Below, in pieces: positions 7,591 to 45,739 of a stretch of DNA of 47,810 bases (positions are counted from its first letter, which is position 1; every line of letters starts with the position of its first letter). Under the pieces are notes generated by a model. That model did no database searches and was not told where the DNA came from. It saw only the letters and a program-made list of their open reading frames with translations. Origin of the DNA: Gammaproteobacteria bacterium (GTDB lineage: Bacteria; Pseudomonadota; Gammaproteobacteria; Ga0077536); NCBI GenBank assembly GCA_023257255.1, contig JALRCR010000005.1, positions 1 through 47,810 of the forward strand, written 5' to 3'. A program made the position numbers and the translations under genes.

Positions 7591-8127
7591 CTAGTTGTTG
7601 ACCTCGCTAAAATCGAGCATTTCACGCTCGATTCCTCGCGTTCTAAGCCAATCGCGTAAGGCTCGGCCGGTGCCTGCTGTCCACGGTTGGACCTTTTCGA
7701 TCGGAACCCATTTGTAACCTGCGATCTCGTCGGCGGGTACAACCACGTCACCTGAATGCGCCCGCAGGTGATAGATGATCAGCAACTGATTTTTGCGGTG
7801 GAACTCGTACATCCCGATATACGATTCGATGCTTGCGTCTACCCCGATTTCTTCTCGAACTTCGCGAACCACCGCTTCCTCAGGCATCTCACCGGCCTCC
7901 AAGAAGCCGGTCACTAGGCCATACCAGTTTTCGGGCCATCCGACGTTACGGACGAGCACGATCTGGTTTTCCCATTCGACTATGCCGCCAACCACCGGTA
8001 CCGGGTTGTCCCAGTGGACATAGCCACAGCGTTGCTGAGGGCATGCAGCCCGGTGACGACCGCCAGTTTCGACCCAAGTCAAAGGCGTGGCGCATTGGGG
8101 ACAGAAGTTCATCGCGTTTCTCGTCAA
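7591..8127 (-). CDS. Nudix hydrolase with N-terminal zinc ribbon
   Basis: This 178-residue protein has a four-Cys zinc ribbon (C9, C12, C29, C34) followed by a Nudix domain. The Nudix box lies at about residues 74-96: G-F-L-E-A-G-E, then REVREEIGV with the metal-binding glutamates. The arrangement resembles NudC-like/ADP-ribose-type hydrolases, which cleave nucleoside diphosphates linked to another moiety. The exact substrate is unknown. It is convergent with yidD. The start could be ATG 8127 or the internal ATG at 8112 (MNFCPQC), which fits the zinc-ribbon start better. Confidence 0.88.
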   Translation of the reverse strand: MTRNAMNFCPQCATPLTWVETGGRHRAACPQQRCGYVHWDNPVPVVGGIVEWENQIVLVRNVGWPENWYGLVTGFLEAGEMPEEAVVREVREEIGVDASIESYIGMYEFHRKNQLLIIYHLRAHSGDVVVPADEIAGYKWVPIEKVQPWTAGTGRALRDWLRTRGIEREMLDFSEVNN

Positions 8128-14915: not shown

Positions 14916-17384
14916 ATGGCGGTCCTGACCACTGAGGAAGCGGTAAGCCGGGTTACGGCACCGCCCCTGCGGGCAGCCGTCGAGCGCATTCTTCAGCATT
15001 ACCTCGCCAGTCTGGGCTATGCGGACGATGCGGCCGGCGAAGCCTTGATCCGGCATCTCAGTGAGCGACTGCCAGCGGGCGCCGGCCCCGAACTCGCGCT
15101 TCGGCACCTGCGTCGCCGGCTCGATCGCTGGACCCTGAACGTCGTCAGGCAATGCCGGTCCGGGCCGACGCCCGATGTCTACACCCGGCGCGCTGCCCTG
15201 CTCGCCATCCAGCCGGGACGCGACTGGCCCGACGCCTTGATGGCTGCTGATCCGCCACCGGCGCTGCTCACCGCTTTTTTGGACGCCCTGCCGGTTGCGA
15301 CCCCGCCGGAGGCGCGGCTTGCCATGCCCGCGCAGTCGCTGGGGACCGCCCCGGCCGCGGCGGTTGAATCTACTACGCCCGATGTCTTGTTGCGCCGGCG
15401 CTTTGCAGTGCTGGGCGGCACGGCTATCGGCACGGCGCTGGCCACGCTGGAAATGGGGCGAGTCTTCTCCCCGGGCGGGATCAGCGCGATCGAAGTGCTG
15501 CTCATGGTGTTGTTTGCGGCCAATTTCGTGTGGATTGCGCTGACCTTCTGCAGCGCATTGGCAGGTCTGTGGAGCGGATTGCGCCCATCCCCCTTGCCGG
15601 GGCTTAAGCCTGGGTTGCCCGCCTCTGCGCCCTTGACCGAGCGAACGGCGGTGCTGATGCCGACCTATAACGAAGACCCGCTGCGGGTGCTCGCGGCCAT
15701 TGAGAAGATCTATCTGGGCCTGGCGGCCGCTGGCGCGCTGGAGCACTTCGAGTTTTTTATTCTGAGCGACACCACTGACCCCGACTGCTGGGTCGCCGAA
15801 GAACTCGCCTGGGACGCGTGCCGGCGGCGCTTGGGGGCGACCGGGCGTCTGTTTTATCGCCGACGGTTTGAGAATACCGGCCGCAAGGCCGGCAATATTG
15901 CGGACTTCTGTGAACGCTGGGGCGCACGGTACGAAAACATGCTTGTGCTGGATGCCGACAGCGTAATGAGCGCCGAGACGGTGCTAACCCTGGCCCGGCA
16001 GATGGCCACCAATCCCGATGTGGGCATCCTGCAAACAGTCCCCAGACTGGTAAACCGCAATACGCTGTTTGCGCGCGCCCAGCAGTTCGCGGCGGCGATG
16101 TACGGTCCGGTGCTCGCGCGCGGCTTCGGGTTTTGGTACGGCGGGGACAGTAACTACTGGGGACATAACGCCATTATTCGCGCGGCCGCCTTTGCATCCT
16201 GCGCGGGGATGCCGGTGCTGCCCGGTAAGGCCCCGTTCGGCGGGCATATTCTCAGCCACGATTTCGTCGAGGCGGCGCTAATGCGGCGCGCCGGTTGGCG
16301 CTCCCATCTACTGACCGAACTTGGCGGCAGTTACGAGGAATCGCCACCCTCGTTGCTGGATCACGCGATGCGTGACCGTCGCTGGTGTCAGGGCAATCTG
16401 CAGCACATGGCGCTTTTAGGCACCGCCGGTCTGCATCCCCTGAGCCGTTTTCACCTGCTCTCCGGAATCATGTCGTATCTGGCCTCTCCCCTGTGGTTTC
16501 TGTTCTTGTTGGTCGGCATCTTTGCGGCGCTTCAGGGCAGCCTGCAGTTACCGGTGTATTTTTTTCCGGACCGCACCCCATATCCGGTCTGGCAAGTGAT
16601 CAACCCCGAACTTGCGGCGCGGCTGTTTGGCGTCACCATGCTGGTGCTCCTCGCGCCCAAGTTCTTTGGCTGGATCGCGGTGGCCGTAAACCGGGATGCC
16701 GTCGCAGGCTTTGGGGGGCGCCGCCGCGCCCTGATGAGCGTGTTGGCCGAAACGCTTTTTTCAGCGCTCATCGCGCCCGTGCAGATGCTGCTCCAAAGCC
16801 AGTTCGTTTTTGACGTGCTGGTAGGACGGGATAGCGGCTGGAAAACCCAGACGCGCGACGATCGTGGGATGCCGTTTGCCGAATGTTGGCATCGGCACCG
16901 CGCGCACATGGTGGCAGGCGTCACCTTGGGCGTGGCGGCCTGGACGGTATACCCAGCGCTGCTCGCCTGGATGATGCCGGCGCTGCTCGGCATGCTGATT
17001 GCCGCGCCAGTTTCCTGGCTGGGGGCACGTTTGGCGGTAGGACTGAAGGCGCGCGAGCGCGGCTTGTTCATCATTCCCGAAGAGGCTTCCCCGTTGCCGC
17101 TGCTTAACGAGCCGCCTGCCAGCGAGGCCTTGATCGCCGGCAGTGGGCTGGCACGCGTTACCCACGATCTGCCGGCGGGCAGCCTTCATCTGGCTTTACT
17201 GGCGCAGCATCCGGGGGCTTCAGAACTGTCGGATGCCATGATTCTGGCCCGCTACCGCGCCTCGGTGGCGCGCAAGCCGGAGGAATTGGCCGCGCGTTTC
17301 GACCGTCGGCTTCAGGCTGCGGCGTTGACCGATCCGGTGGCGATTCGGGATTTGCGCCGCAGGCTCGGTGGTTTTCACCACTAG
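14916..17384 (+). CDS. opgH: Glucans biosynthesis glucosyltransferase OpgH
   Basis: This 822-residue inner-membrane family 2 glycosyltransferase polymerises UDP-glucose into the linear OPG backbone and exports it. A cytoplasmic N-terminus of about 150 residues precedes the first membrane helices. The GT core has LMPTYNEDP, LDADSV (DxD), SHDFVEAALMRR and the RRWCQGNL (QxxRW-like) motif, followed by a run of membrane segments. ATG 14916 is chosen because it is seven bases after the opgG stop. Longer in-frame readings would lie within opgG. Its TAG stop overlaps that of the convergent mlaB in the palindrome CTAG. Confidence 0.95.
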   Translation: MAVLTTEEAVSRVTAPPLRAAVERILQHYLASLGYADDAAGEALIRHLSERLPAGAGPELALRHLRRRLDRWTLNVVRQCRSGPTPDVYTRRAALLAIQPGRDWPDALMAADPPPALLTAFLDALPVATPPEARLAMPAQSLGTAPAAAVESTTPDVLLRRRFAVLGGTAIGTALATLEMGRVFSPGGISAIEVLLMVLFAANFVWIALTFCSALAGLWSGLRPSPLPGLKPGLPASAPLTERTAVLMPTYNEDPLRVLAAIEKIYLGLAAAGALEHFEFFILSDTTDPDCWVAEELAWDACRRRLGATGRLFYRRRFENTGRKAGNIADFCERWGARYENMLVLDADSVMSAETVLTLARQMATNPDVGILQTVPRLVNRNTLFARAQQFAAAMYGPVLARGFGFWYGGDSNYWGHNAIIRAAAFASCAGMPVLPGKAPFGGHILSHDFVEAALMRRAGWRSHLLTELGGSYEESPPSLLDHAMRDRRWCQGNLQHMALLGTAGLHPLSRFHLLSGIMSYLASPLWFLFLLVGIFAALQGSLQLPVYFFPDRTPYPVWQVINPELAARLFGVTMLVLLAPKFFGWIAVAVNRDAVAGFGGRRRALMSVLAETLFSALIAPVQMLLQSQFVFDVLVGRDSGWKTQTRDDRGMPFAECWHRHRAHMVAGVTLGVAAWTVYPALLAWMMPALLGMLIAAPVSWLGARLAVGLKARERGLFIIPEEASPLPLLNEPPASEALIAGSGLARVTHDLPAGSLHLALLAQHPGASELSDAMILARYRASVARKPEELAARFDRRLQAAALTDPVAIRDLRRRLGGFHH

Positions 17385-17713
17385 CCGGTAGGCGAGTCCT
17401 CTTGGTCCGGGATTAGCAATCGCGTCAGCCCGCAGGCGGCGGCAAGCGCGGCGAGTTGCGCCGGCAGTTGTTCAAAGCGAAGCGTGTACCCGCGTTGGCG
17501 AGCGGTTTTCGCGCACTCCACCAGCAAGGCCAGTCCGGCGCTGTCCGCGTGGCCCACGCCGGACAAGTCCAGGTAGCGCACACCAACGGCCAAATGCGGC
17601 TGAAGCGCGGCCAGCGCGGCGGTGACGGTCGAAAAAGACAGCGCGCCTTCCAGCGCAAGACCGCCGTCCGGGCGGGACAATACCGTGATGAGCGAGGGCG
17701 TGGCCAAGCGCAA
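17381..17713 (-). CDS. mlaB: MlaB-like STAS domain protein
   Basis: This 110-residue STAS-domain protein is probably the cytoplasmic MlaB subunit that stabilises and activates the MlaFE ATPase. The signature DLSGVGHADSAGLALLVE (about 49-66) matches the conserved loop and helix of STAS domains. It is the last gene of the mlaFEDCB operon, three bases after the mlaC stop. No ATG or GTG lies at the right place, so the start appears to be TTG at 17713. That is a weak start, fitting a low-abundance regulatory subunit or coupling to mlaC. Confidence 0.87.
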   Translation of the reverse strand: MRLATPSLITVLSRPDGGLALEGALSFSTVTAALAALQPHLAVGVRYLDLSGVGHADSAGLALLVECAKTARQRGYTLRFEQLPAQLAALAAACGLTRLLIPDQEDSPTG

Positions 17714-17716
17714 ACG

Positions 17717-18334
17717 CTACTGAATGGCCGCTCTGGCCGCGTTGTGTTGGGCAATCTGGTCGATCAGCCCATCCATACCGAGTTTAGCCACGTCGGTGTT
17801 AAACCCGCTGCGATAACTCACCACCAGACTGATGCCGTTGATCGCCACATCCATGACCTTCCAGCCATCCGCTCGCTCAAAGACGTCATAGTCGACCTGC
17901 AGGGGCGGGCGCCCGTCGCGACGGTCGACCAGACTTCGAATGCGCTGAATTTTGTCACCTAACTCGCGCGCCGGCATGAACCGCACTTCCGATTCCCGAT
18001 ATTCAAAAACGGCGGTGGCATAAGTGCGGACCAGCAGCGTGGTGAATTCGGCCATGAAGCGCCCGCGCTGCTCGGGAGTCGCCTTGCGCCAATGCTGTCC
18101 GAGCACCCGCTGCGACATACGCTCGAAGTCAAAATGAGGCAGCACGGCTTTCTGCGCGATCGTATCGAGCAGGGCGGGGTTGCTGGAAATGGCGGCGCTT
18201 TCGGCCCGGAGCTCGTTGAGCACCTGCGTGCTGGTGGTCTCGACCAGCAGCTGTGCCGGCGATTGCGCTTCGGCGGCGGCAGGCTCACCCGCCAGCACCC
18301 CAAACAGTGCGGCTGCCAGCAGCCAGAGCCTCAC
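17717..18334 (-). CDS. mlaC: MlaC periplasmic phospholipid-binding protein
   Basis: This 205-residue shuttle carries phospholipids between the outer-membrane MlaA complex and MlaFEDB. A signal peptide (about residues 1-22, hydrophobic LWLLAAALFGVLAG, then AAA) precedes the mature Tol_Tol_Ttg2 domain. Typical parts are LLDTIAQKAVLPHFDFERMSQ, LGQHWRKATPEQRGRF and GWKVMDVAINGISLVVSYR. The GTG start overlaps the mlaD stop (GTGA), implying translational coupling. Confidence 0.94.
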   Translation of the reverse strand: MRLWLLAAALFGVLAGEPAAAEAQSPAQLLVETTSTQVLNELRAESAAISSNPALLDTIAQKAVLPHFDFERMSQRVLGQHWRKATPEQRGRFMAEFTTLLVRTYATAVFEYRESEVRFMPARELGDKIQRIRSLVDRRDGRPPLQVDYDVFERADGWKVMDVAINGISLVVSYRSGFNTDVAKLGMDGLIDQIAQHNAARAAIQ

Positions 18335-18810
18335 GATTTCGGCCCGCTCGATTTGGCGGTCTTGTTGTAAAGGAACTCCTGCATGGCTTTTTCCAGCACC
18401 ACCGCTGATTGCGTAATGGTGATTTCGCTGTTCTCCCGCAGATAATTTTCTTCGCCGCCGGCTTCGAGTCCCACGTACTGTTCGCCCAGCAGCCCAGCGG
18501 TGTAGATGTTGGCGGCGGTGTCGTTCGGGATGTGGTCATAACCCCGTTCGATGCGGAGCGTCACCTTGGCCTGATAGCGCTCGGAGTCGTAGCTGATTGC
18601 GGTGACCCGTCCAACCACGACGCCGCCCATTTTGACCGGCGAACGTACCTGCAGCCCGCCGATGTTGTCGAAATAGGCGCGGACTTCGTAACCCTGAGGG
18701 GCAGAAAACTCGGCCAGATTGGCCACTTTCATGGCAAGCATCAGCAGGGCGGCCAGCCCCAGCGCGACAAATGCGCCGACGGAAATTTCAATCAGACGAG
18801 GGTCTTTCAT
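18331..18810 (-). CDS. mlaD: MlaD, MCE-domain phospholipid transport protein
   Basis: This 159-residue inner-membrane protein has one N-terminal helix (about 9-28) and one MCE domain in the periplasm. It forms the hexameric ring that passes lipids between MlaC and MlaFE. Signature stretches are YFDNIGGLQVRSPVKMGGVVVGRV and AGLLGEQYVGLE. It lies seven bases after mlaE. Confidence 0.95.
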   Translation of the reverse strand: MKDPRLIEISVGAFVALGLAALLMLAMKVANLAEFSAPQGYEVRAYFDNIGGLQVRSPVKMGGVVVGRVTAISYDSERYQAKVTLRIERGYDHIPNDTAANIYTAGLLGEQYVGLEAGGEENYLRENSEITITQSAVVLEKAMQEFLYNKTAKSSGPKS

Positions 18811-18817
18811 GGCGTCC

Positions 18818-19597
18818 TCAGTTAAACATCAAACCGGTGAGCACAAAGTCGAGTCCGAGGATGGCGAGCGATGAATGTACCACCGTGCGCGTTGTCGCCG
18901 CGCTGACGCCCTCTGAGGTCGGCACCGCGTCGTAGCCCTCGAAGACGGCGATCCAGCTCACCACCAGACCAAAAGCGAGACTCTTGATCACCACTCCGTT
19001 TACTACGTCCTGCACCAGCGTGACCTTGGCCTGCATTTGCGACCAGAACGCACCCTCGTCTACACCAAGCAGGCCGACGCCGCAGAAGTAACCGCCCAGC
19101 ACTCCGATGGCGGTGAAGATGGCAGCCAGCAGCGGCATCGACAGCAGGCCCGCCACGAAGCGCGGCGCGACCACCCGGCCCAGCGGGTCGACAGCCATCA
19201 TTTCCATCGCGCTCAGTTGCTCGGTCGCTTTCATGAAGCCAATCTCAGCGGTGAGCGCGGAACCCGCGCGACCGGCGAACAGGAGGGCCGCGATAACCGG
19301 GCCGAGCTCGCGCAACAGCGACTTGGCGATTACAACGCCCAAAGATTCTTCGGCGCCGAAGGTCACCAGTGTGTTGTAGCCCTGCAGGCCGAGCACCATC
19401 CCCACAAAGCTGCCGGAAACCACAATAATCAGCAGCGACTGCACGCCGACCGACCACATTTGCTGCAACAGCAGTCGCGGTCGCAGGGCTAGCCCTGGCA
19501 GGCGCCCGAGCACCGCCAGCAGAAACAGGTGGCCGCGTCCGAGGCGTTCAAAGACGCCGAGACTTGCCCGTCCCAGCTTGGCCAGCAACTCGATCAC
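18818..19597 (-). CDS. mlaE: MlaE permease
   Basis: This 259-residue integral membrane permease (MlaE/DUF140 family) of the lipid transport complex has several hydrophobic helices, the family block [25 protein letters not shown] (in pieces) and [21 protein letters not shown]. The start is GTG at 19597, overlapping the mlaF stop as GTGA. The fixed order mlaF-E-D-C-B supports the identification. Confidence 0.95.
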
Positions 19598-20415
19598 GGG
19601 CCGGCGTCCAGCAGGTCGTCGAGCAAGGGCGGTGCCGGGAAGTGGAAGGGCACCGGGCCGTCCGGCAGGCCACCCATGAACTGGCGGATGATCGGCGAAT
19701 CCGACTCGCGCAACTCCGCCGGTGTGCCGGCTCCGACGATCGTCGCGCCGGCAAGAATGAACAGGTAGTCCGCGATTGAACTGGTTTCCGCGACGTCGTG
19801 GGAGACGAGCACGCTGGTCAGGCCCAGCGCGTCGTTCAGCTCGCGGATGAGACGGACCAGGATGCCCATTGAGATCGGGTCCTGCCCGGAAAACGGCTCA
19901 TCGTACAGAATCATCGACGGATCAAGTGCGATCGCACGCGCCAGCGCCGCCCGGCGCGCCATCCCGCCGGATAGTTCACGGGGATAGAGGTCGCGCGCCC
20001 CGCGCAAGCCCACCATTTCCAGTTTCATCAGCACCAGACTGCGCAAAAGCGAGGCCGGCAGGTCGGTATGTTCGCGGAGCGGAAACGCCACGTTTTCAAA
20101 GACGGTCAGGTCAGTCAGCAGGGCACCGCTCTGAAACAGCATGCCCATGCGTTTCCGGAGCTCGTAGAGCGGCTTGACCGCCAGCGACTGCACGTTCACC
20201 CCGTCGACTTCGACCGTGCCGCTGGTGGGCGCGATTTGGGCCCCAATCAGACGCAGGAGGGTCGTTTTGCCGGTGCCGCTGGGGCCCAGAATGGCGGTGA
20301 CCTTGCCCCGCGGGATCTCCAGATTCACGCCGTTGAAAATCGCGCGCGCACCCCGTCGGAAATGCAGATCGCGAATGCGAACGATGGGTTGGGAAGCCGG
20401 CGCAGGAGTGTTCAT
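19594..20415 (-). CDS. mlaF: MlaF ATP-binding protein
   Basis: This 273-residue ABC ATPase powers the Mla phospholipid transporter. It shows Walker [10 protein letters not shown] (44-52), the signature [14 protein letters not shown] (from 148), Walker B MILYDEP (168-174) and a switch His in VLVSHD. ATG 20415 (MNTPAPAS) gives the usual length. An in-frame start at 20667 would overlap the divergent phosphatase gene. It is the first gene of the operon, and a TACACT -10-like element lies only about 10 bases upstream, so the true promoter is uncertain. Confidence 0.95.
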
Positions 20416-20561
20416 GGTCGCCCGCAGTGTAGTGCCGAACCGACATCGCCGAAACCTGCAATCGACGTCTCCAAAGCGGGTCTTACGTCTAGCGTCCGCG
20501 CCACAAATACGCCACCGTATGCGCCCGGCCGCCAGCGGGGCGGGGACGCGCGGAGCTTGTG

Positions 20562-21572
20562 ATGGACCCAATAACACAGATTTCGGTAGAGCAGATTGGC
20601 GCAGGGCGATGGCGCGTTGCCTGGGACGCCGACTGTCTAACCGAGCCAGTTCGTATCCGGGCGGCACGCTCGCCAGACGCGATGGGTGATCTCTCAGCGC
20701 TTAATGCGGTCGGCGGCTGGGCCGAAGTCGACCTGCCGACCGACTGGTTTCGCCCGTTCTTTTGCCTTGAGCCGACCGCTGGCTCGCCGATGTGGGTGGC
20801 TGAACGCCAGGTCCCGCTGGCAGGCGGGGTTAACTTCAGGGATTTGGGCGGTTACCGAACGGACGACGGACGCCGCGTGCGCTGGGGCAAGCTCTTTCGG
20901 TCCGGGCATTTATCGAAGCTGACCACCGGCGACCAGGACCGCCTCGACGCGCTGGAGATTCGTACCGTCTGTGACTTCCGCATGGCGGAAGAGCGGGCCA
21001 CCGAAAACGCGACCATTGCCTGCGCCCCGGTGCTCGAAACGCTGGGCATTCCGCCGGGTCTGAAAGACCGCTTCTTTTTCCATCGCCTGTTTGAACAGAC
21101 CGACGATCCCGCGGTCGTGGTCGATGCCATGCACGAACTGATGCGCTCGCTGATCGGTGAATCGGCGCCGCATTACGCACGCCTGTTCGCAGTGCTCCAA
21201 CAAGCTGCGGCCGGCAGCGTGCTGATGAACTGTTCAGCAGGCAAGGAGCGCACTGGCGTCGGGGCGGCCCTGCTGCTGCTGGCGCTAGGCGTTCCGCGTG
21301 AGACGATCTTGTACGATTTCACCCTGTCGCGACGTTACTTTCCGGCACAAACCGAATTACCCCGCGCGCTGGAAAAATATGCGGTCAAGGCGCGGCCGGG
21401 CCGTGACGTGGTCGCCTTGATGGAACCCCTGCTGGTGACGCGCGAGTCCTACCTTGAGGTCGTGCTCGCAGAAATCGACCAGCACTACGCCAGCGACGCT
21501 GATTTCCTGCAGCAGGCGCTGGGTTTGACGCCAGCCGCCCGCGCGGCGCTTCGCGATCGCTATACGGCTTGA
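20562..21572 (+). CDS. Tyrosine-phosphatase-type protein (Y_phosphatase3/PtpB-like)
   Basis: This 336-residue protein has an N-terminal region of about 80 residues of beta-rich character and then a dual-specificity-type phosphatase domain. The P-loop is NCSAGKERTG (CX5R, catalytic Cys at 224), and the diagnostic NFRDLGGY (about 91-98) is found in the PtpB/lipid-and-tyrosine phosphatase family. ATG 20562 is preferred because CGGAG lies six bases upstream. GTG 20559 is in the same frame. It heads a co-directional six-gene cluster, with the next start 22 bases downstream. Substrate could be phosphotyrosine, phosphoserine or a phosphoinositide-like or small-molecule ester. The context with a phosphohistidine domain makes a small-molecule or protein phosphate plausible. 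Confidence 0.85.
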   Translation: MDPITQISVEQIGAGRWRVAWDADCLTEPVRIRAARSPDAMGDLSALNAVGGWAEVDLPTDWFRPFFCLEPTAGSPMWVAERQVPLAGGVNFRDLGGYRTDDGRRVRWGKLFRSGHLSKLTTGDQDRLDALEIRTVCDFRMAEERATENATIACAPVLETLGIPPGLKDRFFFHRLFEQTDDPAVVVDAMHELMRSLIGESAPHYARLFAVLQQAAAGSVLMNCSAGKERTGVGAALLLLALGVPRETILYDFTLSRRYFPAQTELPRALEKYAVKARPGRDVVALMEPLLVTRESYLEVVLAEIDQHYASDADFLQQALGLTPAARAALRDRYTA

Positions 21573-21594
21573 AGGAGAGAGAGGCACAGCACCC

Positions 21595-22332
21595 ATGAGC
21601 ACGCTTTATACCGACCACGACAAACACGCTTGGCAGTCGACTTTCGCGATCGTCGAAGCCTACAACGCGGCGATGAAAGATCTGGTTCGCCGCCGCTTTG
21701 CAGAATTCAACGGCAGCTGGCAGGCGTTCGTGGCGGGCCCTGCGTACGACAGCATTACCAAGGAAGACATTGCGAAGATCGAGGCCCAGTTGCTGGCCAA
21801 CGGCTACCGCTTCGAGCCTTCCGCGATGTCGTCGGCGGCCGAACGTCCGGAGGCCTATCGGGACTCGGGGCTGCAGTTGGAAAACTTCTCCTTTGAGCAC
21901 CCGGCTGCGCCCACTGCCGCGCCCGACGCCGAAGGCCGCGAATTGCGCGGCGTCGGCGACAATGTGGTGTCGCGCAAAGCCAATCTGCTTGGGATTGCGC
22001 GCTACGTCCGCACCAGCGACAAGGTGCTGGAATACCTCACCCACGGCGTGCCGGCCAACACCATCGCCATTGTGGAGGATTCCGGCGGGACGCTGACCGC
22101 GCCGGTACTGGAGAAATTTGCCGGCGTGCTGTGTGCCGGCGGCACTACCCGCTCTCATTTGGCGATTCTGACGCGGGAATACGGGATTCCCTGTCTGATG
22201 AACGCCAGACTTTCCGGGATCAAGGACGGCGACCGGCTGGAACTCGAAGTCACCGCCCGCGCCAAGACCGCCGATGACTACCAGACGGGTGCCGATGTCT
22301 CGGCGCGCGTGTTCCGGCTGCCGCCGCTCTGA
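21595..22332 (+). CDS. Stand-alone PEP-utilising enzyme mobile (swivelling phosphohistidine) domain protein
   Basis: This 245-residue protein ends in the swivelling domain of PEP synthase/PPDK-type enzymes. The segment GVLCAGGTTRSHLAI followed by REYGIPCLM matches the family motif GG-x-T/S-x-S-H-A-A-I, with phosphoacceptor H188. The first ~115 residues are helical and specific to this protein. No ATP-grasp (PPDK_N) or PEP-binding TIM-barrel partner is recognisable in this or any nearby gene. Split enzymes of this type are known: phenylphosphate synthase uses separate subunits and a phosphohistidine to phosphorylate phenol. Here it probably works with the next two gene products (gaps of 21 and 24 bases). 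The acceptor is unknown. Confidence 0.85.
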   Translation: MSTLYTDHDKHAWQSTFAIVEAYNAAMKDLVRRRFAEFNGSWQAFVAGPAYDSITKEDIAKIEAQLLANGYRFEPSAMSSAAERPEAYRDSGLQLENFSFEHPAAPTAAPDAEGRELRGVGDNVVSRKANLLGIARYVRTSDKVLEYLTHGVPANTIAIVEDSGGTLTAPVLEKFAGVLCAGGTTRSHLAILTREYGIPCLMNARLSGIKDGDRLELEVTARAKTADDYQTGADVSARVFRLPPL

Positions 22333-22353
22333 AGATTCCAAGGAAGCACTCGC

Positions 22354-23904
22354 ATGTCTCAGCCGACCCTGACCTACGCCCAGCTACTGGAAACCAACAA
22401 CCTCATCCAGCAAAACGCGGATGAAACCTACTGGCTTTGCGCCACGCGCACCGTCCAGGAATCAAAGATTTTCCCGGTCTCTGCCTACATCCTTTTCTCG
22501 TATCTCAACTGTTGGTATCGCTACCCGGCGCTGCTCCGCAAAATTGAGCAGCACATGTCGGCAGAGGAAATCGGCGACCGGGCGCGGAATCAAGGCATCA
22601 AGATCGTGGCCTGGTGCATGCCCTGCTTCTACCTGCTGGGTCGCGAAATGCTCATCAACTGGGGGGTGATCAAACCCAGCGACGGCGTGCTTGACCTCAT
22701 CTACACCATGGATTTCTGGAAGCGCTTTCAGCTGTCCTGGCATCGTAACAACGGCAATCTGATCAATCGTCAGGCCGGCCATCGCGCGCAGGTGCTGCCT
22801 GAGCAGCGCTTGCAGGTTTTCCATGCCGACGCCTTTGAATGTCGTGACGGCGACCCGCTGCACCGTGCTGCCCAGTCGTTTTTGGCTGCCGCCGCGCAGT
22901 ACGGGTTTCTGGTGTCCTGTGAGAGCCGCCTGACGCTGCATAACCACGGGCCGTATCGCGTGTCCGACAAACGCGAGATGCTGGTTCGGGACTTCCTTGA
23001 ACTGTCCGAATCCGGCGTGCCGTGGCTCGATGGTGTCGGGGGTGAAATCCCCTACAACAACCTGACCGTGACGATGATCCTCGAGGGCTGTCACATCAAC
23101 CTGCTCGACGACTGGGGCTCGTTTGAATCCGAGCCCGAGATGCGCGCCGAGCATATGGTGGGCGTGGGCCTCTATACGGCAGATACCCTGTCTGAAGGAC
23201 ACCTCCCGGTCGGGATGGGCAGCGTCGAAGAACTTACCGCCACCTTTCTCGACCTCACCGACCGGATCAAGGTGGCGACCGCCAAGCTGTGGCGCGAGAT
23301 GGCGGGCTGGACCCGCGACCAGCAACTTGATGCTGGCGCCTTGACCTACTACGCCGTCATCAAAGAGTTCGCCATGATTGCCGGCTGCTATGAGATGGAA
23401 GACTGGATGATGATCGACGAGCGCGCCGAACGCTTCCGGCCCTTGCTGAACGACGAATACGGCAATTTGTTTCTCGGCGAACTGGTGGGCTACATCAGCA
23501 CGCCCAGCCAGCGGATGCACGACTACACCATGATGCAGCATACGGATGCCCCCACCCGGTCGCTCTCTTACATTCCGTATTCCATTTTGGATGATGGCGA
23601 TTACACGCCATCGGTGGGGCCGCTACGTCCTGGCGTCAGCAACTTGCCGCGCAAGAACGACCGCTATCGCACCACGCAGGGCGTGCTGTCGCTGGCGGAT
23701 TTCATGCAGCGTAGTCGTGAGTTCGTGCCTGAAATCTGCCAGCCCGCTTACCGCTACCTGTGTCAGGACTGGGTGAAGTATCACGCCCATACGCCGCGCG
23801 CTGATGAGCTTTTCAAGCTCGAACAGCGGCACTCGCGCACCCTGCAGGATGCCGGTGCCGCCCTGCGTCGTGACGATATCGAGGCGCGTCGTGGCAAGGC
23901 CTGA
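22354..23904 (+). CDS. Protein of unknown family (516 aa), partner of the swivelling-domain protein
   Basis: I do not recognise a family. The 516-residue protein looks soluble, with no signal peptide or clear membrane helix. It is rich in aromatic residues and in His and acidic residues. Features that stand out are AWCMPC (C88/C91), LTLHNHGPYRVSDKREML (HNH at 196-198), GCHINLLDDWGSFE (about 245-258) and QRMHDYTMMQHTD (about 387-398). These are possible metal or phosphate ligands. AGGA nine bases upstream supports ATG 22354. Its tight place between the swivel-domain gene and the winged-helix gene suggests a catalytic or acceptor-binding subunit. No ATP-grasp glycine loop or PEP-barrel motif was found. 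Confidence 0.75.
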   Translation: MSQPTLTYAQLLETNNLIQQNADETYWLCATRTVQESKIFPVSAYILFSYLNCWYRYPALLRKIEQHMSAEEIGDRARNQGIKIVAWCMPCFYLLGREMLINWGVIKPSDGVLDLIYTMDFWKRFQLSWHRNNGNLINRQAGHRAQVLPEQRLQVFHADAFECRDGDPLHRAAQSFLAAAAQYGFLVSCESRLTLHNHGPYRVSDKREMLVRDFLELSESGVPWLDGVGGEIPYNNLTVTMILEGCHINLLDDWGSFESEPEMRAEHMVGVGLYTADTLSEGHLPVGMGSVEELTATFLDLTDRIKVATAKLWREMAGWTRDQQLDAGALTYYAVIKEFAMIAGCYEMEDWMMIDERAERFRPLLNDEYGNLFLGELVGYISTPSQRMHDYTMMQHTDAPTRSLSYIPYSILDDGDYTPSVGPLRPGVSNLPRKNDRYRTTQGVLSLADFMQRSREFVPEICQPAYRYLCQDWVKYHAHTPRADELFKLEQRHSRTLQDAGAALRRDDIEARRGKA

Positions 23905-23928
23905 CGCACACTCGACGGAGCTATACCG

Positions 23929-24534
23929 ATGAATACCGATCTCCATCTGGTCATGCACGCTATCGCGATCCGCAAGCATGGCGCTGCCGAAGATATCGCT
24001 GCGATCGCAAGCGTCCCGCTCGCACGCACCGCCGAGCTACTGGCCTCGGCCGTTGCCGGTGGGCGGGTGCTGGAAGCCAACGGGCGTTACCTGCTGTCAC
24101 CGGCCGGCCAATTGATCCTGGCCAGCGAATACTCGCGATTCTGTGATGGGCTGCGCGCCAACGCCGCTTTTGTTGCCGCCTACGAACGCTTCGAGCGCAT
24201 CAACGTCGATCTCAAGCAACTCATCACCGATTGGCAAACGCTTGAACTAGGCGGTAAGCGCGTACCCAACGACCACAGCGACCGCGACTACGACCAGCGC
24301 ATCGTCGACCGCCTCGGCGATTTGCATGAACGCTTCGAGCCGGTGTTGAAGGCATTGGTTGGCGGGGCGCCGCGGCTCAAGGTGTATCAGAAAAAGCTGC
24401 TGGCCGCCCTCGATAAGGCGGAAAATGGCGAGACTGCGGCAGTCAGCGATGCGCGTAGCGACAGCTATCACACCGTCTGGTTTGAGTTACATGAGGACCT
24501 GCTGCGTCTGATGGGACGCCAGCGCGAAGAATAA
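23929..24534 (+). CDS. Winged-helix plus helical C-terminal protein, related to extensions of PPDK-like enzymes
   Basis: This 201-residue protein has an N-terminal winged-helix-like segment (about 1-65: HLVMHAIAIRKHG, a helix pair, then GGRVLEANGRYLLSPAGQ as the wing). The helical C-terminal module contains VPNDHSDRDYDQRIVDRL and SDSYHTVWFELHEDLL. From memory, a similar module (N-D-H-x-D-x-x-Y-D and D-S-Y-H-x-V-W-x-E-L-H-x-D-L) occurs at the C-terminus of actinobacterial pyruvate,phosphate dikinase-like proteins and linked regulators. That fits its place beside a swivelling-domain gene. It may be a structural subunit of the split enzyme rather than a transcription factor. Confidence 0.7.
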   Translation: MNTDLHLVMHAIAIRKHGAAEDIAAIASVPLARTAELLASAVAGGRVLEANGRYLLSPAGQLILASEYSRFCDGLRANAAFVAAYERFERINVDLKQLITDWQTLELGGKRVPNDHSDRDYDQRIVDRLGDLHERFEPVLKALVGGAPRLKVYQKKLLAALDKAENGETAAVSDARSDSYHTVWFELHEDLLRLMGRQREE

Positions 24535-24583
24535 TCACGAACAGCCTCGTTTCAGGGTAAACGAGCCGAGAAGGGGAACAGGT

Positions 24584-25366
24584 ATGGGACGTCTGGATGG
24601 AAAAATAGCCTTTGTAACCGGTGCGGGCACCGGCATTGGCCGGGCTTGCATGGTGATGTTTGCGAAAGAAGGCGCCACCGTTTTCGGGGTCTCGCGCACG
24701 CAGGCCAATCTGGATGAATCACTGCGCCAGGTCGTCGCGGCCGGCGGCAAAGGCAGCGTGTTCAGCGCCGACCTGTCGCAACCCGATCCAGTCGAAGCCG
24801 CCGTCAACCGCTGCGTTGAGACCTACGGCCGCATCGACATCCTGCTGAACGCGGCCGGTGTGGGTTACAACCTGCGCGAGACCAGCGAAGGCTCGATGGA
24901 TCCGGTGCACAGCACGCCGATCGACAAATGGCGTGAGGTGATGGCGCTCAATCTCGACAGCGTGTTCTACGTGTCGCGCCTCGTGATCCGCCAGATGAAG
25001 CAGCAGGGCAAGGGATCGATCGTTAACGTTGCCAGTATTTTCGGGCTGGGCGGTGCGCCGGATGCCCACACCTACACGGCCACCAAAGGCGCCATCATCA
25101 ATCTCACGCGCTCTATGTCGGTCGCCTACGTCGACGACCACATTCGCTGCAACGTGGTGGCACCGGGCTTTGTGCAAACCCAGATGGTGGAAAGCGTGAT
25201 CCCCATGCTGTTTTCGTCCGAGAACCCGAAACTCATTTCGCCGATGGGGCGTCCTGCCACGCCGGAAGAAGTGGCCTATGCCTGCCTGTTTCTGGCCTCG
25301 GATGAAGCCTCTTACTGCACCGGAACCGTACTCACCGTTGACGGCGGCTCAACGGCTCGCGCCTGA
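24584..25366 (+). CDS. Short-chain dehydrogenase/reductase (SDR)
   Basis: This 260-residue classical SDR has a Rossmann fold with TGAGTGIG (12-19), NAAGVG (89-94) and catalytic S151 and Y164-x3-K168 in SIFG and YTATK. It would oxidise a hydroxyl or reduce a ketone using NAD(P). The C-terminal VDGGSTARA is usual. AGGGGA/ACAGGT lies upstream of ATG 24584. It is the fifth gene of the co-directional cluster, 49 bases after the winged-helix gene and 11 bases before a Nudix gene. The substrate is unknown and may be the same compound the swivel-domain system handles. Confidence 0.93.
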   Translation: MGRLDGKIAFVTGAGTGIGRACMVMFAKEGATVFGVSRTQANLDESLRQVVAAGGKGSVFSADLSQPDPVEAAVNRCVETYGRIDILLNAAGVGYNLRETSEGSMDPVHSTPIDKWREVMALNLDSVFYVSRLVIRQMKQQGKGSIVNVASIFGLGGAPDAHTYTATKGAIINLTRSMSVAYVDDHIRCNVVAPGFVQTQMVESVIPMLFSSENPKLISPMGRPATPEEVAYACLFLASDEASYCTGTVLTVDGGSTARA

Positions 25367-25377
25367 GCGTCAAGGCG

Positions 25378-25893
25378 ATGACATCGGCAAGCAACCGCCG
25401 GTATTTCTGCCCCCAATGCGGGGTAGACGCGCTGGAAAGCGTAGACAACAAGCTCTACGGCTGCTCGCGTTGTGGTCATACGTATTTCCATAACACGGCG
25501 GTTGCGGTGTCGGCCGTTATCGAGCGCGCCGGCAAAATCGCGTGGATTACGCGCGCCCGCGAGCCCGGCGCCGGCTTGCTTGATTTGCCGGGTGGCTTTG
25601 TCGAGCGTGATGAGTCGCTGGAAGCCGCCGTGATGCGCGAGACCTTTGAGGAAACCGGATTCAAGCTCCTCGCGCCGCGCTATCTTTTTTCCATTCCCAA
25701 TCGGTATGTATTTCACGGCGTGCGCTACAGCACGGTCGACGTGTTCTTCGGCTGCACGCTGGCGGATTCCACCGAATTCCAGCCGAATGACGAAGCGGCC
25801 GCGCTCGATTGGCTGGCGCCTGCGGCGGTAGATCCGGGCCGAATTGCCTTCGAATCCACGCGCCTTGCGCTGGCCGAAATGCTCAAGGCCTAA
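25378..25893 (+). CDS. Nudix hydrolase with N-terminal zinc ribbon (second copy type)
   Basis: This 171-residue protein has a zinc ribbon (C11, C14, C29, C32) before a Nudix domain. The Nudix box GGFVERDESLEAAVMRETFEETGF lies at about residues 72-95, shown here in one-letter steps: GGFVERDES, then RETFEETGF. It differs clearly from the other zinc-ribbon Nudix protein at 7.6-8.1 kb, so it is not a recent duplicate. It starts 11 bases after the SDR stop and is probably in the same transcript. It could hydrolyse an NDP-linked product or cofactor. The substrate is unknown. A 7-bp hairpin without a U-tract spans its stop codon. Confidence 0.87.
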   Translation: MTSASNRRYFCPQCGVDALESVDNKLYGCSRCGHTYFHNTAVAVSAVIERAGKIAWITRAREPGAGLLDLPGGFVERDESLEAAVMRETFEETGFKLLAPRYLFSIPNRYVFHGVRYSTVDVFFGCTLADSTEFQPNDEAAALDWLAPAAVDPGRIAFESTRLALAEMLKA

Positions 25894-40907: not shown

Positions 40908-43487
40908 TTAGGCGTTAGCGGCGGCCACCCGTTGACCCAGATGGTCAAGCGCTTCCTGCACCTGGTCAATCAGAATGAGGCAGAGGTCGCCGGGCGCCAG
41001 CGAGGCGAGCGCGTGGTCGATGGCCACGAATTCGCCGCGGATTTCTTCCACATGGCGGGTGCGGCTGGCACCGACCAGCCCTTCCTGCAGCAGGGCTAGC
41101 ACTTCGCCGTCTTCTCGACCGCGCTGGCAAGCGTCCTGATACAGCAGCACATTGTCGAACGCCGCGCCCAGAATGCGGGTCTGATCGCGAATGTCTTCGT
41201 CACGTCGGTCGCCGGCGCCGCTGATGACCACGGTGCGCTGCTTCGCAGGCAACGCCGACACCGCTTCGACCAGCGCCTTCATGGCGTCCGGGTTATGGCC
41301 GTAGTCGGCGATGACCGTCGCGCCCTTGTAGTCCAGCACGTTGAAGCGGCCGGGGGTCGACGCCACGTCTGATCTAAAGCTGGCAAGGCCGCGTCGCAGG
41401 GCTTCTGCGCTCACGTTCACTGCCCAGGCCGCCGCCACCGCCGCCATCACGTTGTCGACCTGAAAGCCGAGCTTGCCGCCCAGCGTTAAAGGGATGTCGG
41501 CGAGCGCGAGGCGACAGACTTCTTCGCCCTGATTGATGATGCTGATGTCGTCGCCATCCACAAACACCACCGCCCGGCCCTGGGCGCGATGGGTGACCAG
41601 TAAGGGGTTGGCGCGGTCGCGCGAGAAGTAGACGACGTTGCCCGTTGCCACCGCGCCGAAGCGGGCGGAAATCGGATCGTCCGCGTTCAGCACGGCGTAG
41701 CCGTTCGGCGCCACGTTCTGCACGATGACGCGCTTCAGGACCGCCAGATCTTCCAGCGTGGTGATGTAGTTGAGGCCGAGGTGGTCGCCGCTGCCGATAT
41801 TGGTTACGACCGCGACCTGACAGCGGTCGAAGGCCAGCCCTTCGCGCAGGATGCCGCCGCGTGCGGTTTCGAGCACCGCTGCGTCAACGTCGGGATGCAT
41901 CAGGATGGTCTTGCCGCTGCGCGGGCCGCTGCAATCGCCTGAGTCTAGCTGGCGCCCGCCGGCATAGACGCCGTCGGTGGTGGTCAGGCCGGTGCGCAGG
42001 CCGTGCTGCTCCAACAAGTGGGCAATCAGCCGCACGGTGGTGGTTTTGCCATTGGTGCCGGTGACCGCGATTACCGGAATCCGGCCGTCTTCGCCCGGCG
42101 CAAACATTTCGTTGATGATGGCTTCGCCCACCCGCCGGCCGGTGCCGTAGGAGGGTGACAGGTGCATCCGCAGCCCGGGCGCGGCGTTGACTTCAACCAC
42201 CCCGCCGGACTGTTCTTCCAGTGGCCGCAGCACCGACTGGCAGACGACGTCGACCCCGCAGATTTCGAGGCCGACCATCTGCGCCGCAGTGACCGCTCTG
42301 GCGGCGAGTTCGGGGTGCACCTGATCCGTCACATCGGTGGCCGTGCCGCCGGTGGAGAGATTCGCGTTATTTCGCAGTACTACCGGCTGACCCAGTGCTG
42401 GCACGGCGTCGAGCGTCAGGTTTTGATTGGCAAGGCAGGCCAGCGCGATGTCGTCGATCGGGATGCGGGTGAGTGAGGTGGCATGGCCCGAGCCGCGTCG
42501 CGGGTCGCGGTTTACTTCGTCGACCAGCGCCTGAATGGTCTGCACGCCGTCGCCCGTCACCAGCGGCGGCTCGCGCCGCGCGGCGGCGATCAGTTTGTCG
42601 CCGATAACCAGCATCCGGTAGTCGCTGCCGGGGATATAGCGCTCGACGATGACGCGCGAGCCCGCTTCGGCCGCCGAACGAAAGCCCGCTTCAAGCTGCT
42701 CGCGGGTCTCAACGTTCACCGTCACGCCGCGTCCGTGGTTACCGTCTTGTGGTTTAACCACCACCGGCAGCCCCAGCGCGCAGGCCACTTCCCAGGCTTC
42801 GTCGACGTCATCAACCGTTTGCCCTTCGGGTACCGGCACCCCGGCGGCGGCCAGCAGCTGTTTGCTGAGTTGTTTGTCTTGCGCAATGGACTGGGCAATC
42901 GCGCTGGTGCGGTCCATTTCGGCGGCCTGGATGCGCCGCTGACGGCTGCCCCAGCCAAACTGGATCAGGCTGCCTTCACTCAGACGATAAAACGGAATGC
43001 CGCGCTCCAGACCGGCGGCCACGATCGCGCCGGTCGAAGGACCCAGCCGCACGTCTTCGTAGATTTCGCGCAGACGATTAATCTCGCCCTCCACGTCAAA
43101 CGCGGCGCCGTCGCGGGCGGCCTGAATCAGGCGTTCCGCGATGTCGATCGCGTTGCGGCCGACGTCTTCCTCGTCGTACTCCACCACCACCTGAAAAACC
43201 CCGGGATCGGGCGCGAGCGCGGTGCGGCTGAAGGTCACCGGGCAGCCGATGTCTGCCTGCAGGCTCAGGGTGGTGATCTCCAGCACTTTCGCCATCCCGT
43301 TGGTCTGGCCTTCCGGCGCCGGGCTCAGCGATTGCAGCCGCGGATAGAGCGCGCGAAGTCGTTCTTCAAAGCCCTGAAAACGGGCGATGTCGCGCTCGTC
43401 TTCACCGCAGGTCACGATGGCTTCGATGGCGGTACGGCGGGTCCAGAGATTAGGACCGCGAAGGGCCCTTACACGGTCAACTTGCAT
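40908..43487 (-). CDS. cphA: Cyanophycin synthetase (CphA1-type, complete)
   Basis: This 859-residue enzyme makes multi-L-arginyl-poly-L-aspartate. An N-terminal domain (about 1-165) is followed by an ATP-grasp domain with VVVKPQDGNHGRGVTV (about 242-257) and RVIVERYIPGSDYRML, which adds Asp. A Mur-ligase-like half adds Arg, with P-loop GTNGKTTT (477-484), LETARGGILREGL and GSGDHLG. The C-terminal Mur domain has STPGRFN and ADYGHNPDAM. All key motifs are intact. It is 45 bases downstream of a second, degenerate CphA-like gene and probably shares its transcript. No cyanophycinase or isoaspartyl dipeptidase gene is present in the window. Confidence 0.96.
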   Translation of the reverse strand: MQVDRVRALRGPNLWTRRTAIEAIVTCGEDERDIARFQGFEERLRALYPRLQSLSPAPEGQTNGMAKVLEITTLSLQADIGCPVTFSRTALAPDPGVFQVVVEYDEEDVGRNAIDIAERLIQAARDGAAFDVEGEINRLREIYEDVRLGPSTGAIVAAGLERGIPFYRLSEGSLIQFGWGSRQRRIQAAEMDRTSAIAQSIAQDKQLSKQLLAAAGVPVPEGQTVDDVDEAWEVACALGLPVVVKPQDGNHGRGVTVNVETREQLEAGFRSAAEAGSRVIVERYIPGSDYRMLVIGDKLIAAARREPPLVTGDGVQTIQALVDEVNRDPRRGSGHATSLTRIPIDDIALACLANQNLTLDAVPALGQPVVLRNNANLSTGGTATDVTDQVHPELAARAVTAAQMVGLEICGVDVVCQSVLRPLEEQSGGVVEVNAAPGLRMHLSPSYGTGRRVGEAIINEMFAPGEDGRIPVIAVTGTNGKTTTVRLIAHLLEQHGLRTGLTTTDGVYAGGRQLDSGDCSGPRSGKTILMHPDVDAAVLETARGGILREGLAFDRCQVAVVTNIGSGDHLGLNYITTLEDLAVLKRVIVQNVAPNGYAVLNADDPISARFGAVATGNVVYFSRDRANPLLVTHRAQGRAVVFVDGDDISIINQGEEVCRLALADIPLTLGGKLGFQVDNVMAAVAAAWAVNVSAEALRRGLASFRSDVASTPGRFNVLDYKGATVIADYGHNPDAMKALVEAVSALPAKQRTVVISGAGDRRDEDIRDQTRILGAAFDNVLLYQDACQRGREDGEVLALLQEGLVGASRTRHVEEIRGEFVAIDHALASLAPGDLCLILIDQVQEALDHLGQRVAAANA

Positions 43488-43532: not shown

Positions 43533-45677
43533 TCAGCCGGCGGCCGGGGTGGCCAGATCAACAAGCGCCGAGGGATAGCCGATGATCGCGCCGACGATAA
43601 GGTCAAAGGGAATCTCCAGCGCCCAGGCGGCAGCCGCCGCCGGCAGACAGTCCCCGGCGTTGACGCACGGCGCCAGCAGGTGACGGTGACGTTGGTCACC
43701 GGTAGCAAATACCAGCGCATCGCCTTCCAGGAAAACCGCACGCGCCCCACGGGTCAGGCTTTCTGCGACGGCGAGGTTGCCGCCGTCGCGGGCGTAGAGC
43801 ATCACCTCGCCGTCGGCGTGTTCGGCCATCGCCAGTACCAGCGGGTCGTCGGCATTCAGCACCGCCACGCCGTCGCCCAGCACCACATCGATCTGGGTGC
43901 GCAGCACGTGCGCCATTTGCGCCGGCTCGTTAATGCCGTAGCGATTCAGCGCCGCCGGCACGCTGACGGCGGTCACCACTCCCACCTGACAGCGGTCGTA
44001 GGGCAGGCCTTCGCGCAGCAGGCTGGCGGGTGAGGTTTCGAGGACGGCCGCATTCACCGTGCGGTTGATCAGCACCCGCTGACCGGCCGTCCAGTTGGCG
44101 CCATCGCCGCGGCGAATGCAGCGCTGGCCGAGGAAGGTTCCGCTGCCGCAGGCAACGCCCACCGACTGTCCGTGGAGATGCAGCAGGAAGCCCAGCATGC
44201 CGGCCACGCTGTTGGTGTCCGAGCAGCCCGTGATGCCAATGATTGGAATGCGGCCGGTTTCGCCTTCCGGAAAGAGATGCCGAACGATTGCTGTGCCGGC
44301 TTCGTTGGCCGCGTCGCCGGGCGTGCGCAAGTGCGTCGGCAAGGAGGGGCCGGCGTTCACTTCGATAACCGCGCCGTCCTGCGCGGTCAGGGGCTGGCTG
44401 ATGTCTTTCGCCACGATGTCGACGCCGGCGATGTCCAGACCCACGACGCGCACCGCAAGGCGCGCCATATCCAGCGTGTCCGGGTGCACTTGGGCCAGCA
44501 CGTCTTCGCCCATCTTGGCGGCGCGGGGCAGGGTGACCGTTTTGCCTGCCGGCAACACGGCATCCAGTTCCACGCCTTGCCGCAGCAGGGCGAGTTTGAA
44601 GGTCGGGTGGTCGGCAACGGTATCGGCCATCCACAGGTCGGCGTCATCGCCGCCCACGGTGGCTGCAACCAGCGCGCGCAGGCTGTAGCGACCATTGCCG
44701 GTCACCGTGAATTCCACCGCGCCGGTCGCGGCAACCACGCGGTTGTCGACCACCAGCAAGCGATACTCGGTGCCTTCGATGAAGCGTTCGACAATGACGG
44801 CGTTCTGAATGGTCTGCGACAGCTTGAAGGCGCTCGCCACCTCCTCATAAGTACTCAGCGCGAGCGAGACGGCCACTCCGCGACTGCCCTCAGCCGGTTT
44901 GATGACTACCGGCAGGCCTAAATCCTGCGCAGCCTCCCACGTGGGGTCGACCTTGCGCACGATGCGGCCTTCCGGCACCGGAATGCCGTAGCGGACCAGC
45001 ATTTCCTTGGCCAGATCCTTGTCCTGCGCGATGCTCTCCGCGATCGCCGAGGTGCGGTCGGTTTCGGCAGTCCAGATGCGGCGTTGACGCGCGCCAAAGC
45101 CAAACAGCACCAGATTGCCGTGCTCCAGCGGGGCCACCGGGATGCGCGCGGCGCGCGCCGCTTCCACGATGGTGGCGGTGGTCGGGCCAAGGGTTTTTTC
45201 GTCCGCCAGTGCGCGCAGTTCGGCCAGCGTACCCGGCAGATCGAAGGGCTCGTCGTGGATGGCGGCGAGGATGAGTTCGCGGGCCTTCAACAGACAGGCG
45301 CGGGTCAGGTCTTCCTGCGCGATGCGCACCACGACGTGATAGACGCCCACGGTGGCCGTGCTGCGGGCGCGGCCAAAGCCGACGGGGTGTCCGATGCGGG
45401 TCTGAATTTCCAGCGTGACGTGTTCAAGAATGTGCCCGACCCAGGTGCCTTCTTCGAGGCGACGCACGAAGCCGCCGGGGGCTTCGTAGCTGCACTCATG
45501 CTTGTACAGACCCGGGAGCCAGGCGGTCAGCCGCTCGACGAAGCCGGGCAGGGTATTGGAAGGACATTCTTCAAGGTCGCCGATGTCGACCAGCGCTTCG
45601 ATGGCGCTTTTATACGACCAGCGATTGGGGCCGCGCAGCACCGTGATGTCGAGGATACGGATGTCGTGCCGGCTCAT
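43533..45677 (-). CDS. CphA-like protein with degenerate, truncated Mur-ligase half (CphA2/CphA'-type)
   Basis: This 714-residue protein is homologous to CphA over the N-terminal and ATP-grasp domains (VVIKPAEGSRGVAVSL, VIVERFIEGTEYRLLVVD). In the Mur-like half the P-loop has become GITGCSDTNS (481-490), with no Gly-Lys-Thr. ARGGI has become SPASL, and DHLG is lost. The C-terminal Mur domain (about 130 residues) is absent. This parallels cyanobacterial CphA2, which polymerises beta-Asp-Arg dipeptides with one ATP site, and the CphA' copies beside cphA in betaproteobacteria. ATG 45677 (MSRHDIRILDITVLRG) aligns with family starts. It is the first gene of the cph operon. Confidence 0.88.
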   Translation of the reverse strand: MSRHDIRILDITVLRGPNRWSYKSAIEALVDIGDLEECPSNTLPGFVERLTAWLPGLYKHECSYEAPGGFVRRLEEGTWVGHILEHVTLEIQTRIGHPVGFGRARSTATVGVYHVVVRIAQEDLTRACLLKARELILAAIHDEPFDLPGTLAELRALADEKTLGPTTATIVEAARAARIPVAPLEHGNLVLFGFGARQRRIWTAETDRTSAIAESIAQDKDLAKEMLVRYGIPVPEGRIVRKVDPTWEAAQDLGLPVVIKPAEGSRGVAVSLALSTYEEVASAFKLSQTIQNAVIVERFIEGTEYRLLVVDNRVVAATGAVEFTVTGNGRYSLRALVAATVGGDDADLWMADTVADHPTFKLALLRQGVELDAVLPAGKTVTLPRAAKMGEDVLAQVHPDTLDMARLAVRVVGLDIAGVDIVAKDISQPLTAQDGAVIEVNAGPSLPTHLRTPGDAANEAGTAIVRHLFPEGETGRIPIIGITGCSDTNSVAGMLGFLLHLHGQSVGVACGSGTFLGQRCIRRGDGANWTAGQRVLINRTVNAAVLETSPASLLREGLPYDRCQVGVVTAVSVPAALNRYGINEPAQMAHVLRTQIDVVLGDGVAVLNADDPLVLAMAEHADGEVMLYARDGGNLAVAESLTRGARAVFLEGDALVFATGDQRHRHLLAPCVNAGDCLPAAAAAWALEIPFDLIVGAIIGYPSALVDLATPAAG

Positions 45678-45739
45678 GGCAGGTTCACTTTTGTCATACA
45701 AAGCGACCGCAGGAGGCGGCTCACGCGATAAGATGGGCA

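Follow-up and report, generated by a model that had tools for sequence, protein, structure and literature searches.

The phenolic dikinases HpeHI, CreHI and PpsAB consist of separate ATP-grasp donor and swivel/acceptor proteins, use a phosphohistidine carrier and act in a catabolic setting (PMC12167813). In the Hpe pathway, 4-hydroxyacetophenone receives a phosphate from HpeHI, without which HpeCBA does not carboxylate it, and HpeD performs the dephosphorylation (PMC9618137, PMC12167813); the pathway, described in Rhodococcus rhodochrous GD02, thereby combines the kinase, a three-part biotin carboxylase, the phosphatase and an AMP-forming coenzyme A (CoA) ligase (PMC9618137). Here we analysed a stretch of 47,810 nucleotides (contig JALRCR010000005.1 of a Gammaproteobacteria bacterium, hereafter the window), in which six genes at positions 20562-25893 include a triad encoding a stand-alone phosphohistidine swivel protein (B), a protein of 516 amino acids (aa) without family assignment (C) and a third protein (D). 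B, C and D probably provide the swivel and acceptor half of a small-molecule dikinase that is made up of several components and feeds a carboxylation, with the ATP-using half encoded elsewhere.

Unlike in HpeHI, CreHI and PpsAB, the swivel, C and D are distinct proteins here or occur as fusions with a different domain order. The donor here is a pyruvate, phosphate dikinase (PPDK)-type protein with its own PF00391 swivel, whereas HpeI has an ATP-grasp domain only and no swivel. A separate ATP-grasp donor, as in the split dikinases, was found in relatives (45 of the 46 named loci with flanks of at least 8 kb on each side of C, hereafter wide loci) and at separate loci in the window's family, but not in the window's own incomplete assembly. 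Likewise, a linkage of kinase and carboxylase genes of the Hpe type was present in relatives (44-45 of the 46 wide loci) and absent from the window operon, which itself carries no carboxylase genes. Different from the Hpe pathway, the kinase is of another kind, a Y_phosphatase3 protein replaces the NagD-like phosphatase, and thiolases are present. The donor shares the ATP-grasp and swivel domains of PPDK (PDB 1KBL) but is devoid of its phosphoenolpyruvate (PEP)/pyruvate barrel. The system also follows the ATP-grasp, swivel and acceptor logic of rifampin phosphotransferase (RPH), and the swivel of a fused relative matches that of RPH, but C gave no sequence or Foldseek match to the rifampin-binding domain. 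No description of this gene cluster was found in the open-licence literature, including acetone and Methylibium contexts. This multi-part enzyme system is apparently undescribed, resembling the split dikinases and the Hpe pathway while differing in its acceptor and makeup.

B, C and D form a conserved unit

In 71 of the 80 named loci, the B gene immediately precedes the C gene in the same orientation, and the gene order phosphatase-swivel-C-D-SDR (short-chain dehydrogenase/reductase) is kept across the window's family. In addition, the three proteins occur as fusions: C and D are encoded by a single open reading frame (ORF) in five relatives (L013, L017, L019, L039 and L083), the swivel is fused to a C relative in 21 actinobacterial ORFs, and in Rhodococcus opacus B4 (L044) all three are joined in a single protein, with a tyrosine-type phosphatase encoded next. 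The triad is thus a real multi-subunit unit. The initial annotation of the window had proposed a possible phosphotransfer system around the swivel, and a swivel-based unit of this kind is supported; the comparison of gene neighbourhoods that it called for revealed a triad linkage strongly conserved across genomes.

All six ORFs of the window operon are on the + strand with intergenic gaps of 11-49 bases, as had been annotated, and Pfam matches and motifs confirmed the earlier assignment of the C-X5-R phosphatase, the swivel with its H188, the SDR and the zinc-ribbon Nudix protein:

20562..21572 (start at 20559 or 20562), +, Y_phosphatase3-type C-X5-R phosphatase, 337 aa (PF13350, E 6e-60)
21595..22332, +, swivel protein B, a stand-alone phosphohistidine domain, 245 aa (PF00391, E 4.5e-08)
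22354..23904, +, protein C, the proposed acceptor (substrate-binding) subunit, 516 aa (no match in Pfam or NCBIfam)
23929..24534, +, protein D, the third subunit, 201 aa (no match in Pfam or NCBIfam)
24584..25366, +, SDR oxidoreductase, 260 aa (PF13561, E 6e-58)
25378..25893, +, zinc-ribbon Nudix hydrolase, peripheral, 171 aa (PF00293, E 5e-18)

In B, an N-terminal extension of ~118 aa precedes the swivel domain. H188 (codon 22156-22158) is conserved without exception among the 14 relatives aligned, and the motif G-G-[TS]-x-R-S-H was found in nearly all of 101 relatives. D carries a C-terminal motif, S-x-H-x-x-W-F-E-x-H-E, whose H/W/F/E residues are invariant, and has no detectable homology to PPDK. 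The initial description of D as a winged-helix/helical protein held up weakly, in that an N-terminal winged helix is possible but only single relatives match MarR_2/TrmB, below the cut-off.

Three plasmid-borne sets showed further arrangements. On R. opacus B4 pROB02 (L044), two APH-type kinases and a phosphatase flank the swivel-C-D gene, with a P450 and aldehyde and alcohol dehydrogenases nearby. Two Rhodococcus plasmids (L045 and L046) carry three swivel/C sets per cluster, one of them fused, plus a DUF7065-like protein, which suggests several phosphorylation steps. On the Methylibium petroleiphilum PM1 plasmid (L049), a distant swivel/C/D set lies ~4 kb from genes for a cobalamin-dependent mutase, an AMP-forming ligase and MeaB.

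A truncated PPDK and a biotin carboxylase accompany the triad in relatives

The wide loci (n=46) contained the swivel in 46 cases, D, PPDK, carboxyltransferase (CT), biotin carboxyl carrier protein (BCCP) and the AMP-forming ligase in 45 each, and biotin carboxylase (BC) in 44. The linked PPDK, of about 590 aa, comprises an ATP-grasp domain (PF01326) and a PF00391 swivel with a conserved GGxTSHAA, and aligns with residues 15-556 of the 874 of a solved PPDK, so that the PEP barrel is missing. Because this ATP-grasp protein is linked to the triad in relatives, a donor does exist. The earlier view that no donor was recognisable is not supported: the barrel-less PPDK stands beside the triad in relatives and at a separate locus in most genomes that have only the window-type triad. 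The initial annotation had also named the finding of an ATP-grasp partner that makes the system an ordinary PEP synthase as an outcome that would refute its proposal. A partner was indeed found, but it has no PEP-binding barrel, and an ordinary PEP synthase was ruled out on this ground.

Two types of triad locus in the window's family

Genomes of the window's family usually hold two copies of C. Locus 1, the window type, has the order phosphatase-swivel-C-D-SDR, with CT before the SDR in L017, L019, L020 and L021; locus 2 has the order swivel-C-AMP-ligase-D-PPDK-BCCP-BC-CT-thiolase. The window operon is a family-specific duplicate; phylogenetic analysis of C showed that the locus-1 copies are a single clade (SH-aLRT 100) nested in a family clade with the locus-2 copies. 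Within the family, 23 of the 29 genomes that encode C also have the barrel-less PPDK, as against none of the 7 that lack C (Fisher p 2e-4, uncorrected for kinship). Moreover, genomes with locus 1 only (G010, G012, G013, G017, G020, G024, G029 and G034) have a separate PPDK-BCCP-BC-CT-thiolase-SDR locus without swivel, C and D.

Protein C is the candidate acceptor

C relatives were detected at 182 places in GTDB genomes of Actinomycetota, Alpha-, Beta- and Gammaproteobacteria and Bacillus, and also on plasmids of Rhodococcus, Novosphingobium, Paraburkholderia and Methylibium. The family is patchy, since among 299 sampled Pseudomonadota a profile search recovered C from the window's own genome only; IMG/VR yielded no C relative. 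Four loci (L102, L103, L132 and L110) bear the GenBank titles Klebsiella pneumoniae or Bifidobacterium breve, and several of these metagenome-assembled genomes appear to be mislabelled. In one relative (G001), the C gene (L010, 4009-5559) contains an in-frame TAG, reflecting either an assembly error or a pseudogene.

Neither B nor C contains a PEP/pyruvate-binding barrel according to Pfam, and a profile search gave no PDB sequence match for C. An AlphaFold2 model of C built with 91 sequences (predicted local distance difference test score, pLDDT, 93.3; predicted template modelling score, pTM, 0.93) predicts a helical N-terminal half followed by a six-strand sheet and further helices. Foldseek found no match for this model in the PDB at E <= 0.001 and all VIA-align scores were at or below Z 2.4, neither of which proves a new fold. 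The model of a swivel-C fused relative (pLDDT 79.9, pTM 0.70) matches the swivels of PPDK and RPH over about 115-130 residues.

As the PPDK has no PEP barrel, the acceptor site must come from another protein, for which C is the obvious candidate. C is therefore probably the acceptor rather than the donor. The initial annotation had suggested that it may be a new type of donor or acceptor module; its family is unmatched in Pfam, NCBIfam and the PDB and fits an acceptor role, and the donor part of that suggestion is not supported.

Proposed pathway and alternative explanations

From the observed linkage, fusions, invariant histidine, domain content of the donor, co-occurrence and duplication, we infer the activity and the substrate side as follows. 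Judging from its domains, the barrel-less PPDK would move a phosphoryl group from ATP to a histidine. The phosphate may then reach H188 of B via the PPDK swivel, or B may dock on the ATP-grasp domain directly, and B would hand the phosphate to a small molecule bound in C, with D assisting. By analogy with the Hpe pathway, the phosphorylated compound would be carboxylated by the biotin carboxylase (BCCP, BC and a PYC_OADA-type CT); subsequently, the C-X5-R phosphatase would dephosphorylate the product, the AMP-forming ligase would activate it with CoA and the thiolase would cleave it, while the SDR may interconvert alcohol and ketone. The window copy would cooperate with a PPDK-carboxylase cluster at another place in the genome. 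If so, the pathway that joins kinase and carboxylase is widespread and includes a family of acceptor proteins that lacks annotation. It would add a different architecture to the split dikinases known from HpeHI, and suggest functions that can be tested for the 516-aa family and for the truncated Rhodococcus PPDKs annotated as pyruvate phosphate dikinase. It could also offer a lead on how compounds resembling ketones or phenols are attacked by bacteria such as Rhodococcus, Pseudonocardia, Novosphingobium and freshwater Gammaproteobacteria. A bolder version, possible but on balance not favoured, is that C has a previously unknown acceptor fold and that a His-to-His relay, from the PPDK swivel through a second swivel to the substrate in C, precedes biotin-dependent carboxylation; such a relay would make this a modular dikinase of a new class, standing at the entrance to a catabolic route that has not been described and occurs in several phyla.

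Several observations weigh against a PPDK-dependent dikinase that feeds carboxylation. The donor PPDK already has its own swivel, which leaves the need for a second one unexplained. B has the spacing GG-x4-H where PPDK and HpeH have GG-x3-H, and it does not conform to the swivel motif T/S-x-x-G-G-x-x-x-H of the split dikinases, although the histidine itself is invariant. C aligned with the acceptor domains of the HpeH/CreH type at an hhalign probability of only 0.3%, in profiles so shallow that a shared fold could be missed. The window's own assembly (87% complete) has neither a barrel-less PPDK nor a close carboxyltransferase, and G030 (94% complete) has the window-type operon with no such PPDK or carboxyltransferase, an exception without explanation. 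In the window's own genome, the absence of PPDK may be a gap: the contig with its locus 2 (C193) has a length of only 3742 bases. G018 likewise ends in a truncated contig, and G025 carries a PPDK fragment.

These absences also bear on an alternative that we consider unlikely, namely that the window operon is a neofunctionalised duplicate uncoupled from carboxylation, in which the triad phosphorylates a compound that the SDR uses as a substrate and the phosphatase can dephosphorylate again, with PpsA or PtsI as the phosphate source. Carboxylase genes are missing from the operon in the window's genus, the operon of G030 occurs without PPDK, and the window's own genome encodes PpsA and a 578-aa swivel protein (probably PtsI) in an assembly without the barrel-less PPDK; however, genomes with only the window-type C mostly retain PPDK and carboxylase, and the carboxyltransferase lies within the operon in L017, L019, L020 and L021. 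The dikinase-carboxylase reading has, in turn, a variant of its own, rather unlikely, in which a simple, acetone-like ketone is turned into an enol phosphate, much as pyruvate is by PEP synthase, and then by the biotin carboxylase into a beta-keto acid. The PPDK ancestry and the pyruvate-carboxylase-like carboxyltransferase are consistent with it, and an AMP-forming ligase and a thiolase suit a route from ketone through beta-keto acid to acyl-CoA, but the presence of a dedicated phosphatase next to the triad hints that, as in the Hpe pathway, a phosphoester is still intact after the carboxylation step. By this analogy, the phosphatase would favour a surviving phosphoester over an enol phosphate, both being possible.

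The individual proteins could also be assigned otherwise. That C is a donor module of a new nucleotide-binding type is very improbable: it belongs to no recognisable family and adjoins the swivel, but an ATP-grasp PPDK is already linked in nearly all wide loci. We give equally little credence to D being an unrelated transcription regulator whose linkage is incidental. The weak MarR_2/TrmB matches and a Methylibium relative annotated as MarR family point that way, but D is present in 45 of the 46 wide loci, has the invariant C-terminal motif and is fused in frame to C or swivel-C in several lineages, and because of these fusions we regard it as a subunit rather than a bystander regulator.

Phosphatase, SDR and Nudix genes

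In 18 of the 19 window-type loci of the family, the operon starts with the phosphatase gene. The phosphatase contains the motif NCSAGKERTG, and the C-X5-R active site was present in all 23 clustered relatives; its proposed role is the removal of phosphate from a late intermediate. The SDR, with both the glycine motif and YxxxK, is encoded downstream of D in every window-type locus of the family, with the carboxyltransferase (PYC_OADA) inserted between the two in L017, L019, L020 and L021, and is proposed to be a substrate or product oxidoreductase. The Nudix protein has an intact Nudix box and a zinc ribbon of two CxxC (CPQC/CSRC). Only within the window's own genus was its gene found next to the operon, and none of the 80 named loci contains it; the gene is peripheral and outside the core, whereas the initial annotation had suggested that the Nudix protein could process the product.

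Genomic surroundings

The assembly comprises 549 contigs, one of which is the window. A defence role was unsupported, as PADLOC gave no match for B, C or D. Divergent from the operon lies a cluster (17381-20667, -) that by eye resembles Mla-like lipid transport and stays adjacent in the window's genus (L009-L012). Distant from the operon, a second zinc-ribbon Nudix-like protein of 178 aa was recognised by eye at 7591-8127 (-), and two adjacent ORFs at 40908-43487 (-) and 43533-45767 (-), of 859 and 744 aa, appear by eye to be cyanophycin synthetase-like.

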